From Clostridia bacterium (lineage in GTDB: Bacteria > Bacillota > Clostridia > Oscillospirales > Acutalibacteraceae): a stretch of DNA of 44,168 nt. A model generated the notes under the pieces. The model ran no database searches, was not told the DNA's origin, and saw only the letters and a program-made list of their open reading frames with translations. Below, one piece after another: positions 1 to 36,287 of the stretch. Position numbers and translations under genes: made by a program. Each line of letters opens with the position of its first letter. Position 1 is the first letter of the stretch. The stretch covers positions 1-44,168 of the forward strand of contig JAFWGH010000155.1 of the NCBI GenBank assembly GCA_017512465.1. Reading direction: 5' to 3'.

Positions 1-3000
1 CGTATAGGTGTTACCGTCTAACACACAAGAGGCGGTGGAAGTACGGATATTGTCTTTCTCTTCCACAGTGACTTTGGCAGCAATTTCTACCTTTTCACCG
101 CAATCGCTGCAGGTGAACACAGCAAGCGCATTGCAGTAGGCATCTGTCCAAATCCATTCCGGCTCACCGTAGCGGTGCTCCGAAGCGGGAGTGAGCGTTT
201 TGCCCGCAAGCGCTTCTGCCTGTGCGGCAGTCAATACGCCTTTATAAAGATTTCCTTCGTCATCTTTTAACGCCAGCCCTTCGGCAATGCTGACTTCTTC
301 ACTCTCTAACTTGTCAAAGTGAATGGTATCGCCCGTCTGTTGCCAGCCGAGCTGTAAGCTCTTGTTGAGCGGCAGGTCGCCGATTGTCGTGTTGCCGCCG
401 AGGATAGCGGCTCTGTCACAAGCCAAAACAGCCGCTTTAAAGGTACCGCCGCTTACTATGCAATTTTTGGTGGATTCAAAAAAGCCCGTTTCACTGTCAA
501 CCACACCGCCGTATTGTGCAAAGTCCGTTAAAACCGTGTGGCGCTTACCGAGAAGTAAAGTGCCGGTTTGTGCGCTTTGCCCGTAAACACTGAGGGTGGA
601 GGTAGTGCCCTCCTTCGTTATCAGGCAATCAATATGATCTAAATCATAATAACCGTAGCCTTGGTAGAAAGAGAAAGTAGCACCATCCGCAAGAATGAGT
701 TCCACATCGCCGGAAATGGTCATTTTTTCAATAGACTGAATATTGCTATCCACCACATACCAACCGGCTGTCAGCTCAAGGTTGGTGTGGGTTAAGCGAC
801 GCGCACTGACCGTTTTTTCTACACCGTCACGGTCAATATAAGTTGCCTGCGTCACAGGGAGATAGACGGCTTCAAAGGTTCTTTCGCGATTAGACACGCC
901 TATGTCTTCACCGGTACCGACATAGTAGGCGCCGCTCTCACTCCAACAAACAAATTCCATCCCCTCCGGTGCGTGGGTGCTTGCGGGTGCTTTGATGGTA
1001 CCGCTCACTGGGCCTTTCACCTTTGAGGTGACCTGATTGCCGCTTGTATCCTGCTCTACAAAGGTGATTTCACGCATCACGGCAGAAGCGCCGCAAACCG
1101 TGCAAACATTACTTTCGTTCCACTCATGGTAGCCGGCAGTGGTATAATCACGCAAGCCGCAATCTGTACACTGTTTCACATGTAAAGAATCACTGTCATA
1201 TATCCACTGTGCATTTTTATGCTCACAGGCATGCAGATACACATATTTGGCGTTTTTTGTTGCCGTATAGCGGTCGTCGCCGTAATATCTGGAAGTATGG
1301 TTTTTATCGGAGCCGGCATCACAGACGAGCGTTTCCTCAAACCATCTTGTAATATGGTAGGAATAGAAAATGCTGTTGTCCCCTTTGCCGATTGCCGCAG
1401 CAGTGCCGTCCCCACCGGCAATCGCTTCTACCTTATTGTTTGAACCGTGGATTTCAATATTGGTTTTGTCACCATCCTCGCCGTTGCCAATGCCGGCACC
1501 GTAACTCTTACCTTCGGCATATATATCTGAATTGATAATGGTTATATTACCGCCGTCACCGCCTTCACCGCCGCCGATACCGGCAGCGTCCGTACCGCCG
1601 TAGGCTTTTACGGTGGACTCTCTAATGGTGATATCGCCGCCGTCACCGTTATCGCCACCGCCGATGCCTGCCGCATAGGGGCCGCCGTGTACCGTTACAT
1701 TCGAGTTATTTTGAATGACTATCGTGCCGCCGCGACCGTCCTCACCGCCGCCGATACCCGCGCCGTCACAATTTCTGTGTTCGCGAATGCTCATTTCATC
1801 GTGCGGTTCTTCAAGGTAATAGTAAAGTGCTCTATCGGCAATCACCGTGGAGTGGTCAATCGTGATATTGCCGCCGCTCACATCATCGCCGCCACCGATT
1901 GAGGCAGCATATTCGCCGCCGTTTGCCGTAACGTTGGAATCGGTAATCGTGATGTTTGCTGTGCTCTCGACCTCATTGCCGGTGCCGATGGCAGCCGCAT
2001 CATCACCGGAGGCAGCGTCAATCGTAGAATTTTTAATATCAATGGTAACCTTGTTATCGGCTTCATCGCCGGTACCGATAGCGGCACCGTAATCACCGCT
2101 TGTCGCCGTTACCGTGCTGTTTTCAATGGTAATGGTGTTAACATCGCCCTCTTCGCCGCTGCCGATGGCAGCCGAGTAATTGCCGGATTTGGCTGTTACA
2201 TTACTGTTTTGAATGGTAATGGAAGAAACACTGCCGCCGCAAGAACCGCCGCCGATGCCGCAACCGGATTGGTCAGCGCCAAAGCCATCCACAATCAAAG
2301 CTAAAAGCCCCAAAAACACACCGACAACCGATTCCCCATGGTCAGAGGGATTCGGATTCGTTTTGTTTAAACATTTTAAAATATCATCTGTGGCATCCGC
2401 CATGCTGTTATAATTAGAGGAACAGGCGAATACATTAGCATTTTCAATGTGAATGGTGCCGCCGTTGCCGCCATCCGCGCCGCCGCCAATGCCGGCGCCG
2501 CCTTCGGTGGACGAGGCAACAATCGTACCGCCGGAAATATTGATTTGCGAGGCACTGGCTTCCTTGCCGGCGCCGATACCGGCACCGTTGCGAGAGGTTG
2601 CCACTACAACGCCACCGGAAATATCAATCGTTCCACCCTGGTTTTGTTCCAAACCGCTGCCAATACCGGCACCGGTATAGCCTTCTGCATACGCGACTGT
2701 ATTAATATCGCCACCATAAATATGTATCGGTCCGTTTTTGCCTCTTTGACCGCCGCCGATACCGGCACCGGTGCTGCACTGTGCATTCACTGTACCGCCG
2801 TAAATACCGATACCGTCCTTGCCGCTGTTACCTTCTATCCCGCTACCGATGCTCGCGCCGCCCCAACTTTTGGCATCAATGTCGCCGCCGTATATTTGGA
2901 TGGCTTCCAGCGCAAAGCGGCTTGCAGGTCCATGATAACCGCCGCCGATTGCCGCACCCGAGCCGGCTTGTTGCTGGCAAGTCACATGACCGCCGTAAAT

Positions 3001-3579
3001 GCGCGTTATACCGCCGCCTCTTCCTTCGGCACCGCCGATACATGCGCCGGTACCGCTTAAATAAGTTAAATCAATGGTGCCGCCGTAAATCGTGATATTG
3101 CCGCAATCTTCCCCTTTCACACCGCCAATGAGCGCGCACTCATGGTCATAGGTGCCATCGGAAAAATGAATGTTGGCATATATTTTGCCGGTATCGTTGC
3201 TTTGCCCGTAAATATACAAATTACCGTCGGCTTTGATGTTAATACCTTTTTGCAAGTTCATCGTCACACCGTCGCACAAAATCAGGTGTACCTCACTGCT
3301 CGCCACTATCATACGAGAGCCGACCGTGCAATTTTTTGAAACCACATACCAACCCGGCGCAAGCGATGTGCCTGTCACATCGCTCCAGTCCGTATAATCG
3401 GTACAGGTTTTTTCGGTATCAAGAATGCGTTCCTGCTCCGTTTGCGCCTCCGGATTCCACGCGCGCTCGATATAGGTAACACCACCTGCCGCTGCCGCAT
3501 GAAACGGTACGGCGCTAAAAACGCCAAACGCTATTAAAACGCATAGAAATAAACTTAAAGCTCTGCGCCAATTTTTCAT
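1..3579 (-). CDS. Large secreted beta-helix repeat surface protein (N-terminal part; 3' end outside window)
   Basis: An open frame of 1193 codons runs from ATG at 3579 to the window edge without a stop. AGGAGG lies 6-7 bases before the ATG. Residues 1-32 form a signal peptide (MKNWRRALSLFL, hydrophobic core, then HAAAAGG). After a short conserved block (WYVVSKNCTVGSRM) come about twenty units built on GAGIGGG or AAIGTG followed by GGxITIxxSxVTA, the pattern of a right-handed parallel beta-helix. Near residue 730-790 are paired CxxCG-type motifs (CTDCG, CTVCG) and then an InlB-B-repeat-like stretch (FVCWSESGAYY). The WYVV block recurs after it, so the architecture is duplicated. Such proteins are known in gut Clostridia as cell-surface or adhesin-like proteins; the ligand is unknown. 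The gene is the last in the window on this strand and is followed upstream by repeat-rich DNA. I translated it by eye and saw no frameshift. Confidence 0.85.
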   Translation of the reverse strand, partial: MKNWRRALSLFLCVLIAFGVFSAVPFHAAAAGGVTYIERAWNPEAQTEQERILDTEKTCTDYTDWSDVTGTSLAPGWYVVSKNCTVGSRMIVASSEVHLILCDGVTMNLQKGINIKADGNLYIYGQSNDTGKIYANIHFSDGTYDHECALIGGVKGEDCGNITIYGGTIDLTYLSGTGACIGGAEGRGGGITRIYGGHVTCQQQAGSGAAIGGGYHGPASRFALEAIQIYGGDIDAKSWGGASIGSGIEGNSGKDGIGIYGGTVNAQCSTGAGIGGGQRGKNGPIHIYGGDINTVAYAEGYTGAGIGSGLEQNQGGTIDISGGVVVATSRNGAGIGAGKEASASQINISGGTIVASSTEGGAGIGGGADGGNGGTIHIENANVFACSSNYNSMADATDDILKCLNKTNPNPSDHGESVVGVFLGLLALIVDGFGADQSGCGIGGGSCGGSVSSITIQNSNVTAKSGNYSAAIGSGEEGDVNTITIENSTVTATSGDYGAAIGTGDEADNKVTIDIKNSTIDAASGDDAAAIGTGNEVESTANITITDSNVTANGGEYAASIGGGDDVSGGNITIDHSTVIADRALYYYLEEPHDEMSIREHRNCDGAGIGGGEDGRGGTIVIQNNSNVTVHGGPYAAGIGGGDNGDGGDITIRESTVKAYGGTDAAGIGGGEGGDGGNITIINSDIYAEGKSYGAGIGNGEDGDKTNIEIHGSNNKVEAIAGGDGTAAAIGKGDNSIFYSYHITRWFEETLVCDAGSDKNHTSRYYGDDRYTATKNAKYVYLHACEHKNAQWIYDSDSLHVKQCTDCGLRDYTTAGYHEWNESNVCTVCGASAVMREITFVEQDTSGNQVTSKVKGPVSGTIKAPASTHAPEGMEFVCWSESGAYYVGTGEDIGVSNRERTFEAVYLPVTQATYIDRDGVEKTVSARRLTHTNLELTAGWYVVDSNIQSIEKMTISGDVELILADGATFSFYQGYGYYDLDHIDCLITKEGTTSTLSVYGQSAQTGTLLLGKRHTVLTDFAQYGGVVDSETGFFESTKNCIVSGGTFKAAVLACDRAAILGGNTTIGDLPLNKSLQLGWQQTGDTIHFDKLESEEVSIAEGLALKDDEGNLYKGVLTAAQAEALAGKTLTPASEHRYGEPEWIWTDAYCNALAVFTCSDCGEKVEIAAKVTVEEKDNIRTSTASCVLDGNTYT

Positions 3580-22168: not shown

Positions 22169-22243
22169 CCGCCCATAGTATAATGGATAGCACGCAAGAT
22201 TCCGGTTCTTGAGATAGGGGTTCGACTCCTCTTGGGCGGGCCA
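22169..22243 (+). tRNA. tRNA-Arg, anticodon CCG
   Basis: A 75-base cloverleaf. Acceptor CCGCCCA (22169-22175) pairs with TGGGCGG (22233-22239), discriminator G22240, encoded CCA. The anticodon stem CAAGA/TCTTG encloses loop TTCCGGT, giving anticodon CCG at 22202-22204. The T-arm AGGGG-TTCGACT-CCTCT is at 22216-22232. The rare-codon arginine tRNA CGG; its 3' end is copied in the downstream tandem repeat. Confidence 0.9.
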
Positions 22244-22569
22244 AAAAAGGAGGCTTCACTTTGGTGAAACCTCCTTTTCAATTCACACAGCATAAAAAAG
22301 AGGAGTCGAACCGTCATCCATCTCGCGGCGGTTCGCGGGGCGGAGCCGCGAGGGATATAAAATCGGCGCGGCTTGCGAAGCAAGCGAACGCGAGCGCAAG
22401 TGCGCGTGCAAGCCGGACTCCTCTTGGGCGGGCCAAAAAAGGAGGCTTCACTTTGGTGAAACCTCCTTTTCAATTCACACAGCATAAAAAAGAGGAGTCG
22501 AACCGTCATCCGGCTCGCGGCGGTTCGCGGGGCGGAGCCGCGAGGGATATAAAATCGGCGCGGCTTGCG
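22224..22569. repeat. 192-bp tandem repeat (1.8 copies) starting inside the tRNA-Arg 3' end
   Basis: Copies 22224-22377 and 22416-22569 match over 154 bp with two differences (22320-22321 against 22512-22513). Each unit begins with the last 20 bases of the tRNA (GACTCCTCTTGGGCGGGCCA), then a terminator hairpin, then an inverted copy of the tRNA T-arm (AAGAGGAGTCGAACC), then GC-rich palindromes. Between copies is a further palindromic spacer (22378-22415). The second copy therefore carries a partial, non-functional tRNA end. Confidence 0.85.
22245..22278 (+). terminator. Intrinsic terminator of tRNA-Arg (repeated at 22437-22470)
   Basis: AAAAGGAGGCTTCAC pairs with GTGAAACCTCCTTTT with one mismatch; the stem ends in a T run. 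It starts immediately after the CCA end and is duplicated in the second repeat unit. Confidence 0.85.
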
Positions 22570-25785: not shown

Positions 25786-26869
25786 ATGAGTACAATTCAA
25801 CTCATACAAGGCTCTGCCGTGGCGCAGCAGGTCGATGCGGTTGTCAATGCCGCCAATCGATATTTAGCCGCGGGCGGCGGCATTTGCGGTGCGATTTTTG
25901 CCAAGGCGGGTAATGCGCAGCTGCAGCAAGCGTGCGATCAGTATCAAACACCGCTGAGCGATGGCGATGCGGTGATTACCCCGGCATTCGGTATCACCAA
26001 CGCCAAGGCGATTATTCACGCAGTCGGTCCCGATTTCAGGTTAGCCCGACGGGAGCCGAACCCAAACAGGTTTATATCGCCTTTTTTTCACTAATACTGC
26101 GTTAAAATGCCTTGCAATACGACAGTATTCCCTCACCATTTTGCCTTGTCTTAGTAAAAAACAGGCAGATATAAACTGCAAGCACCTCTCGGTTAGAAAT
26201 TTTTGAGATAATTGTGCCTCATTTGAGGCAGTTTGGCTAGTGGCAATAATACTATCGCACAAATACGGTTTCTATTTACTGATTTGCCTTCATATTGCGT
26301 TAAAAATACTCGAAATACACGCCGGTATTTCTGCGCTTTTTGCCTTATCTGAAAACAAATCAGTAAAATAAAAACTGCTTTGCACTTTCAATACTTTAGT
26401 GGAGTGCAGTTTGGTGCTTTGAAAGCGCCGGTTGGCTAACGCCAATCAAGATTGAAAACGCCGAAATGCGCTTTAATAAAGTATTGAAAGCGTGTTTGTG
26501 CGGTAGCATTATTGCCCACAACGAAAATGCGGTAGAATTAGCCATAAAGTTCAAGCGAGAGGCTGTTCGGGTTCGACTCCCGTCGGGCTAACCCCGAATG
26601 CCTATAAGGCTTTAAACGATGCTTATTATAATGCACTCAAAGTATTGATGGAAAACGATTTGCACAGCATTGCTTTTCCGCTGATTAGTGCAGGCATTTT
26701 CGGCGGCGACCTTGCTGATCCGATTGTAGTGTCCGCAACAGAGTGTAAGAAAGCATATGGGTATTTTATCAAAAATCATCCTGATTATGAAGTGGATGTC
26801 TTTCTTTGTGCGTATTCGCTTCGTGAGTATCACGCAGCACGGGAGAGCTTTGATAATACAGTATCATGA
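25786..26869 (+). pseudogene. Macro-domain (ADP-ribose-binding) gene split by an insertion
   Basis: The 5' part (25786-26040) encodes the N-terminal half of a macro domain: VDAVVNAANRYLAAGGGICGAIF, containing the NAAN and GGG ADP-ribose loops, then IIHAVGPDF. The 3' part (26591-26869) continues in register with TPNAYKALNDAYYNALKVL and the second loop IAFPLISAGIFGGD. Between them lies a 550-bp insertion at 26041-26590. Removing exactly that stretch rejoins the frame as GPDFR-TPNAY, so the disruption is recent. Intact homologues of this type bind or hydrolyse ADP-ribose on proteins or O-acetyl-ADP-ribose. AAGAGG precedes the ATG. A strong terminator follows at 26878. Confidence 0.85.
26039..26593. 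mobile_element. MITE-like insertion with tRNA-end-like 25-bp terminal inverted repeats
   Basis: The 25-bp left end (26039-26063, GGTTAGCCCGACGGGAGCCG...) and right end (26569-26593) are inverted copies with one mismatch. Read outward on the right, GGGTTCGACTCCCG followed by TCGGGCTA looks like a T-arm and acceptor 3' half of a tRNA. The interior has no transposase; it carries two diverged copies of a block at 26093-26160 and 26293-26360 (TATTGCGTTAAAAAT and TTTTGCCTT shared) and the palindrome TGCCTCATTTGAGGCA near 26215-26230. No clear target duplication is visible. The element interrupts the macro-domain gene. Confidence 0.75.
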
Positions 26870-28701: not shown

Positions 28702-28998
28702 TTAAGAGAGGGGAGACCCGCAAAATTCGCAGAAATTGCCGGTACCGGCAGGGGCTCCGCAGTTGCCGCAAAAGTTCGGTTTCTTTGTCGGTGTGGGGAT
28801 CTCTCCGGCTGCTATTTTTGCAGCCATATCAAGCAGCCTTTGCTGCTCGGCTTCGTCCTCGCGCATGGCTTGCTGTGCCTTCGCTTCCGCAGCCGCGCGC
28901 TCTTCGGGTGTCATCTTCTCGAGTTGCTCTTGAAGATCCCTTTGCATCCGCTCAATCTCTTTTTGCACTTCTTCTTGTGTCATATTCAAATAATCCAT
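28702..28998 (-). CDS. Small coiled-coil/zinc-ribbon protein, paralogue 1
   Basis: A 98-aa protein starting at MDYLNMTQEEV, with AAGGAGG upstream. Residues 6-60 are a highly charged amphipathic helix (EEVQKEIERMQRDLQEQLEK), probably a coiled coil. Residues 78-98 form a double-CxxC zinc ribbon: FCGNCGAPAG then FCEFCGSPL. The gene at 35867-36163 encodes the same length and architecture with about two-thirds identity by eye. The organisation suggests a small adaptor or oligomeric scaffold; function unknown. Confidence 0.78.
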   Translation of the reverse strand: MDYLNMTQEEVQKEIERMQRDLQEQLEKMTPEERAAAEAKAQQAMREDEAEQQRLLDMAAKIAAGEIPTPTKKPNFCGNCGAPAGTGNFCEFCGSPLS

Positions 28999-29191
28999 AC
29001 CGGCGCGCCTCCTTCTCATTATAGATGCCATTGCTTCAAAAAATAGCTGTATTCATCACACCGTATTCGGTTGTTTTTGTATAAAACCATTATATCACAA
29101 TTTTAGTGCTTTAACACCGCTATTTTGCAATTCGCACAAAAAAGAGTGTTTTACAACCTAAGAAGTTCCTGTGTTGCGCGCCCTTTGGGGT

Positions 29192-35866: not shown

Positions 35867-36163
35867 TTAAGCAAGGGGAGAGCCGCAGAATTCGCAAAAT
35901 TTGCCGCTGCCTGCGGGTGCACCGCAGTTGCCGCAGAATTTCGGTTTTTTTGTCGCAGCGGGTGTGATACCTGCTGCTATTTTGGCACCTTCATCTAATA
36001 ATTTTTGCATCTTAACCGCATCGTCTTGTATGGCTTGTTGCGCCCGTGCTTGCGCCTGCGCGCGCTCTTCGGGTGTCATCTTTTCCAATTGCTCTTGGAT
36101 TTCCCGCTGCATCCTTTCAATCTCTTTTTGCATTTGCTCTTGTGTCATATTCAAATTATCCAT
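35867..36163 (-). CDS. Small coiled-coil/zinc-ribbon protein, paralogue 2
   Basis: A 98-aa protein starting at MDNLNMTQEQM with AAGGAG upstream. A long charged helix (QKEIERMQREIQEQLEKMTP) precedes a zinc ribbon FCGNCGAPAGSGKFCEFCG. It has the same length, start and layout as the gene at 28702-28998, so the pair arose by duplication. Function unknown. Terminated by the hairpin at 35821-35851. Confidence 0.78.
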   Translation of the reverse strand: MDNLNMTQEQMQKEIERMQREIQEQLEKMTPEERAQAQARAQQAIQDDAVKMQKLLDEGAKIAAGITPAATKKPKFCGNCGAPAGSGKFCEFCGSPLA

Positions 36164-36287
36164 ACCATTTCTCCTTTTTGATGATACCGCCGCGATAGTC
36201 CTCACCGGTGGTTACAGTAAGCATCACAGTGTATTTTCTGCTGTTTTGAAAAATTTACCGCAATTATTTTTACTTTGACAGATGCGG

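Follow-up and report, generated by a model that had tools for sequence, protein, structure and literature searches.

What places a second copy of a tRNA gene's 3' end, together with a reversed copy of its T-arm, directly behind that gene? The window analysed here, a stretch of 44,168 nucleotides that forms contig 12 of a 193-contig genome, raises this question at an intact tRNA-Arg(CCG) gene with an encoded CCA (22169-22243, forward strand; ARAGORN and Rfam RF00005). TRF detects a period of 192 bp in 1.8 copies at 22224-22569, and the unit opens with the last 20 nt of the tRNA (22224-22243). Its order is tRNA 3' end, terminator, antisense T-arm, GC-rich palindromic core and the tRNA 3' end again. 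In the first unit, an A-rich/T-rich terminator hairpin (22244-22279, forward strand) precedes the antisense piece AAGAGGAGTCGAACC (22298-22312, reverse strand), which is the exact reverse complement of GGTTCGACTCCTCTT in the T-arm of tRNA-Arg(CCG); the structured core follows at 22313-22415 (forward strand), and its stem CTCGCGGC/GCCGCGAG covaries among relatives. We refer to this core as type 1. A direct copy of the tRNA 3' end, running from the T-loop to the CCA (22416-22435, forward strand), closes the first unit and opens the second. The second unit has an identical terminator hairpin (22436-22471, forward strand), another antisense T-arm copy (22490-22504, reverse strand) and a truncated core that lacks the closing tRNA end (22505-22569, forward strand).

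When the last 30 nt of the tRNA are compared with the 600 nt downstream of the gene, the longest direct copy spans 20 nt and the longest inverted one 15 nt, and neither length is reached in any of 2000 block shuffles. TRF, the coordinates and these shuffles confirm the 192-bp tandem repeat with tRNA end, terminator, antisense 15-mer and GC-rich palindromes that a preliminary description had reported. Rfam, at gathering and at permissive thresholds, reports only the tRNA at this locus.

Recurrence of the unit and its cores

The unit is neither single nor unrelated to tRNAs in the relatives of the window organism, as the same arrangement recurs behind many tRNA genes of its genus and family. Within one genus, BLAST and pattern searches locate the type-1 core in sister species not only behind tRNA-Arg(CCG) but also behind Val(CAC), Val(GAC) and Pro(GGG), and at each of these loci both the antisense piece and the closing 3' end match the neighbouring tRNA itself. 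Indeed, where the tRNA-Arg of one species has the T-loop variant TTCAACTCC for TTCGACTCC, both copies mirror it (L006). The close relatives with the same core are metagenome bins of uncultured Clostridia, Oscillospiraceae and Ruminococcaceae, two of them from goat jejunum. Across four genomes of the genus, 21 of 82 tRNA genes are followed by an antisense copy of their own T-arm and 19 of 82 by a direct copy of their own 3' end, against 2.8% and 0.45% in a control with the tails of other tRNAs; a single-contig genome from another genus of the family gave 0 of 21 for both (denominators count tRNA genes without another tRNA after them). Tail repeats thus occupy a minority of the tRNAs in any genome, and since the genomes are mostly metagenome bins whose contigs often end in these repeats, the counts are lower bounds.

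At least two structured cores, unrelated in sequence, occur in this same frame. The genome of the window organism itself carries a second type behind tRNA-Trp, Lys, Pro, Glu and Leu, and we built covariance models for both, R1 for type 1 and R2 for type 2. R1, whose match at the window locus begins at 22302, is found in 3 genera of the family, and its hosts in two further genera are Pro, Glu, Thr, Gly and Lys tRNAs. R2 detects its core in 45 of the 150 genomes of the family, which represent 42 of 135 genera; its hosts include Lys, Arg, Leu, Pro, Ser, Gly, Glu, Val, Trp, Gln and Thr tRNAs as well as tmRNA 3' ends. Two-sided covariation supports 6 of 17 pairs in type 1 and 7 of 29 in type 2; none of 500 shuffles reaches these counts, and slid structures drop to 0-2. 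The unit behind tRNA-Lys is predicted to fold into a branched hairpin closed by the antisense T-arm and the 3' end (z = -6.2). At gathering and permissive thresholds Rfam gives no credible match to either core, and the exact core patterns are absent from IMG/VR viral contigs. Hammerhead-like and group I/II intron-like cores were considered by eye and found no support from models.

Other repeats were seen at tRNA genes. Further families of long palindromic repeats (AATGATGTTTGCC.., ATGAAATAAATCCC..) stand behind tRNA terminators at L075, L083, L077, L068 and L124; in front of some of them lie 5-8 nt that are antisense to the CCA end of the tRNA. A structured element (..CGATGAGGC...GCCGAAGAGG...GTTTCTGACGG) at about 1650-1823 of L067 is also present upstream of tRNA-Pro(GGG) in L150 and L189; it occupies the D-loop of degenerate tRNA-Thr and tRNA-Pro copies beside the intact genes, and is possibly a counterpart of the tail repeats on the 5' side.

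Local ends and travelling cores

The relation of the ends to the neighbouring tRNA was measured on 83 distinct type-2 units. An upstream T-arm matches the antisense piece in 59 of 82 units, in 44 of them exactly, and the matching T-arm mostly lies 57-75 nt from the antisense piece. The control is 3.0% for exact matches and 49% when up to two mismatches are allowed, so that only the exact matches are informative. After the core, 47 of the 59 units have a copy, at least 12 nt long, of the 3' end of the same tRNA, compared with 2% for the tails of other tRNAs. Units without a nearby tRNA are often second tandem units or lie at contig ends; others come after an isolated tRNA 3' fragment or are separated from the tRNA by foreign DNA. 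In L213 and L220, a gene whose end resembles that of a large serine recombinase terminates at a tRNA CCA fragment and a type-2 unit comes directly next, a layout that looks as if an integrative element had split the tRNA from its unit.

The cores follow a different rule. The median distance between cores is 0.24 within the same genome behind different tRNAs, 0.36 between different genomes with the same tRNA end, and 0.38 when both genome and tRNA differ. Of 49 units, 37 have their closest core in their own genome, against 3.5 expected (permutation mean). This means that cores spread among tRNA loci within a lineage, whereas the ends are local to each tRNA. Gene conversion of whole units would not produce this pattern, since it would carry the ends along.

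One pair of orthologous loci shows a site with and without the unit. In one species, the CCA of tRNA-Pro(GGG) is immediately followed by GAAAAATCCG; in a sister species, the terminator, an antisense T-arm, a type-1 core and a second 3' end stand before GAAAAATCCG, and the comparison of the flanks thus defines the extra piece as exactly one unit. The loss of one unit by deletion across the 20-bp direct repeats would explain this pair equally well. Distal units are often truncated (the window, L195, L252, L265), so intact units tend to adjoin the tRNA.

Proposed spread of the repeat and rival explanations

We propose that the locus carries a non-coding tRNA-tail repeat of the RtT type, named after the Escherichia coli repeats discussed below, which probably spreads between tRNA genes as a selfish or neutral passenger; we favour the view that it is dispensable. 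In one unit, [terminator - antisense T-arm - folded core] is flanked by an intact tRNA gene on one side and by a second copy of its 3' end on the other. On a single strand, the antisense T-arm would pair with the second 3' end and close the core into a branched hairpin. The core would then move from tRNA gene to tRNA gene through recombination or template switching primed by the conserved T-arm (GGTTCRANTCC), and the sequence outside the T-arm, namely the outer ends, would be taken from the target tRNA. Tandem copies may be gained and lost through unequal recombination between the direct repeats of the tRNA end. The spread of cores and the locality of ends are established by the statistics above, and from them we infer the molecular step. 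If ends were rewritten after landing, fresh insertions with mismatched ends would be expected, and these are hardly seen; the second unit of L206 is one possible case. Among the origins that the preliminary description had offered, a satellite multiplying by way of the tRNA end fits best, as the unit recurs, its cores cross tRNA loci and its ends follow the tRNA at hand.

The main rival is a function in the cell, which we consider rather unlikely: the unit would be a structured RNA or a processing signal of tRNA operons, and selection on pairing would keep the ends matched. Such an RNA would arise by transcription through the terminator, be cleaved off as the tRNA matures, and act in trans or tune tRNA expression, as proposed for the E. 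coli rtT RNA. The helices covary and the loops are conserved, the latter so strongly that this could reflect such a function, and the tRNA-Lys unit has a strong predicted fold. In addition, RtT RNAs are reported to be released from the transcripts of tyrT and other tRNA operons in tRNA processing and to modulate the stringent response (PMC4986893). However, the units are patchy, being present in about 30% of the genomes of the family; a unit can be absent behind the same tRNA in a sister species; distal units are truncated; and about half of the E. coli proK alleles among the matches listed lack a full unit.

An origin as scars or minimal satellites of tyrosine-recombinase islands is improbable. 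By this route, a circle carrying a tRNA 3' end, a terminator and attP would integrate at the T-loop and restore the tRNA, leaving the displaced 3' end on the far side. An intact tRNA with a displaced fragment is indeed the signature of an island (PMC4383910), and at tRNA-Pro(GGG) the flank that adjoins the CCA in one species adjoins the second 3' end in its sister species. Against this, the units are 150-200 bp long and gene-free, one core is common to many unrelated tRNAs, and a move from one tRNA to a different one would by this route give the target a 3' half that is not its own. Tyrosine recombinases occur throughout, in counts unrelated to copy number, only two of them in the window organism's own genome. 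The att scars of successive insertions suggested in the preliminary description are therefore a weak explanation for integrase-free units of about 150-200 bp with a conserved core.

Least probable is a retro-insertion, in which a reverse transcriptase would fold back on the terminator, copy the tRNA 3' end into the antisense piece and switch to the core RNA; it accounts for the order tRNA - terminator - antisense and for palindromes that run through the terminator into the CCA at several loci, but no reverse transcriptase domain was found in the window organism's genome, G118, G146 or G094 (RVT_1 is absent from the first and from G118, which is 99% complete and has 12 type-2 copies), so that reverse transcription is unlikely as a current driver. 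As copy number is linked neither to reverse transcriptases nor to tyrosine recombinases, both were rejected as drivers of the repeat.

A common origin with another element of the window was also considered. The element at 26039 comprises 545 bp between TA and TA (26042-26043 and 26589-26590); it interrupts a macro-domain gene (PF01661), and joining the two flanks of this gene yields a 178-aa frame. Its use of T-arm sequence as inverted ends, as noted in the preliminary description, is real (31 nt, 94% complementary). BLAST finds 38 stretches of this family in the genome, many at contig ends; the subfamilies have inverted ends of their own, three of them T-arm-like and the others not. The element is MITE-like, with TA duplicated at its target site, and seems to contain a second, related element nested within it. 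The common mechanism that the preliminary description had suggested from the T-arm ends does not find support, since terminal inverted repeats are fixed in each subfamily, TA is duplicated and the macro-domain gene is interrupted; a common origin was rejected on the TA duplication and the fixed ends. Behind tRNA-Lys(TTT) of two sister species (L116 in G006, L173 in G004), the same MITE occupies the same place in the type-2 core, in opposite orientations between T-arm-like ends. Elsewhere in the window, GC-rich repeats of about 87-90 bp in 11-12 copies at 1387-3053 probably encode a repetitive protein, and two 300-nt stretches with 76% identity (28702-29001 and 35867-36166) are probably paralogous genes.

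Comparison with known systems

Several known systems resemble the tail units in part. Genomic islands in tRNA and tmRNA genes (Islander) likewise combine an intact or regenerated tRNA with a displaced 3' fragment, which in the tail units starts in the T-loop; however, islands span many kb, while the tail units measure about 0.2 kb, have no integrase in the 150-200 bp between tRNA and fragment, contain an antisense T-arm and have a core common to different tRNAs. MITEs are also small, non-coding, multi-copy and bounded by inverted ends, but their ends are fixed within a subfamily and accompanied by a TA duplication, whereas those of the tail units come from the tRNA and vary with it, and the tail units are almost confined to tRNA and tmRNA tails. 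REP and BIME palindromes are structured non-coding repeats as well; to our knowledge, they are not confined to tRNA tails and have no tRNA-derived ends. With an integron attC site there is a resemblance only, in that both ends of the tail unit are predicted to pair into one stem.

The closest known system is found in E. coli, namely the 178-bp repeats of tyrT/tyrV with the RtT RNA (Rfam RF00391, rttR) and their relatives at proK. Like the tail units, the RtT repeats stand directly behind the tRNA gene, have a stretch antisense to the T-arm and acceptor about 59 nt downstream, continue with a GC-rich palindromic core and close by repeating the tRNA 3' end, T-loop through CCA, in direct orientation. 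Behind tyrV of K-12, the antisense GGGGAAGGAT at +59, the palindromic core and AATCCTTCCCCCACCACCA follow one another three times. The Rfam structure line of RF00391 closes by pairing the antisense T-arm with the 3' end and ends in CCA, as do the predicted folds of the tail units. In E. coli, too, the ends follow the local tRNA, as seen at tyrT/V and proK; proK has RtT units with proline-specific ends, in tandem and with the distal one truncated, and argQ/Z/V has a shorter form with arginine-specific direct copies. Strains of E. coli differ by exact units. About half of the E. coli genomes listed have a proK allele short by exactly one unit (L281; the listing gave 60 records per query, distributed across about 5,400), the sole short allele read throughout retains a truncated unit after the tRNA, and tyrT/V carries between 0 and 6 annotated RtT copies. 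For the tyrT repeats, we know of no explanation in the decades since their description. The two systems differ in that their core sequences are unrelated, and that the clostridial units fall into two or more core families and have many more tRNA isotypes, as well as tmRNA, as hosts. Neither model crosses over: RF00391 has no match in three genomes of the family, and the type-2 model has none at E. coli tyrT. Some relatives of RtT are BIMEs (PMC2965389). Beyond E. coli and Pasteurellaceae, we found no relevant prior description in the open-access literature.

Independent families with the same layout in about one third of the sampled genera of one gut-bacterial family make the E. coli oddity one case of a class with testable rules: the place is the tail of a tRNA or tmRNA, the ends are copies of the neighbour, and the core travels between tRNAs. 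If the units are mobile, they represent a kind of element without fixed ends; if they are functional, they form an unannotated family of structured RNAs attached to tRNA genes. A further caution is that a tRNA 3'-end fragment need not be the scar of a genomic island. Tentatively, there might be a general class of minute tRNA-gene parasites with neither genes nor fixed ends, which use the T-arm of any tRNA or tmRNA as a landing site and acquire both ends as copies of the target, one of them inverted and the other direct, several unrelated cores having arisen in Clostridia and Gammaproteobacteria through an end-copying mechanism. By analogy, the tail units appear to work like the RtT repeats and to have the same architecture while being no members of RF00391, and the layout that they share with the E. 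coli repeat suggests a wider class of small elements living on the tails of tRNA genes.
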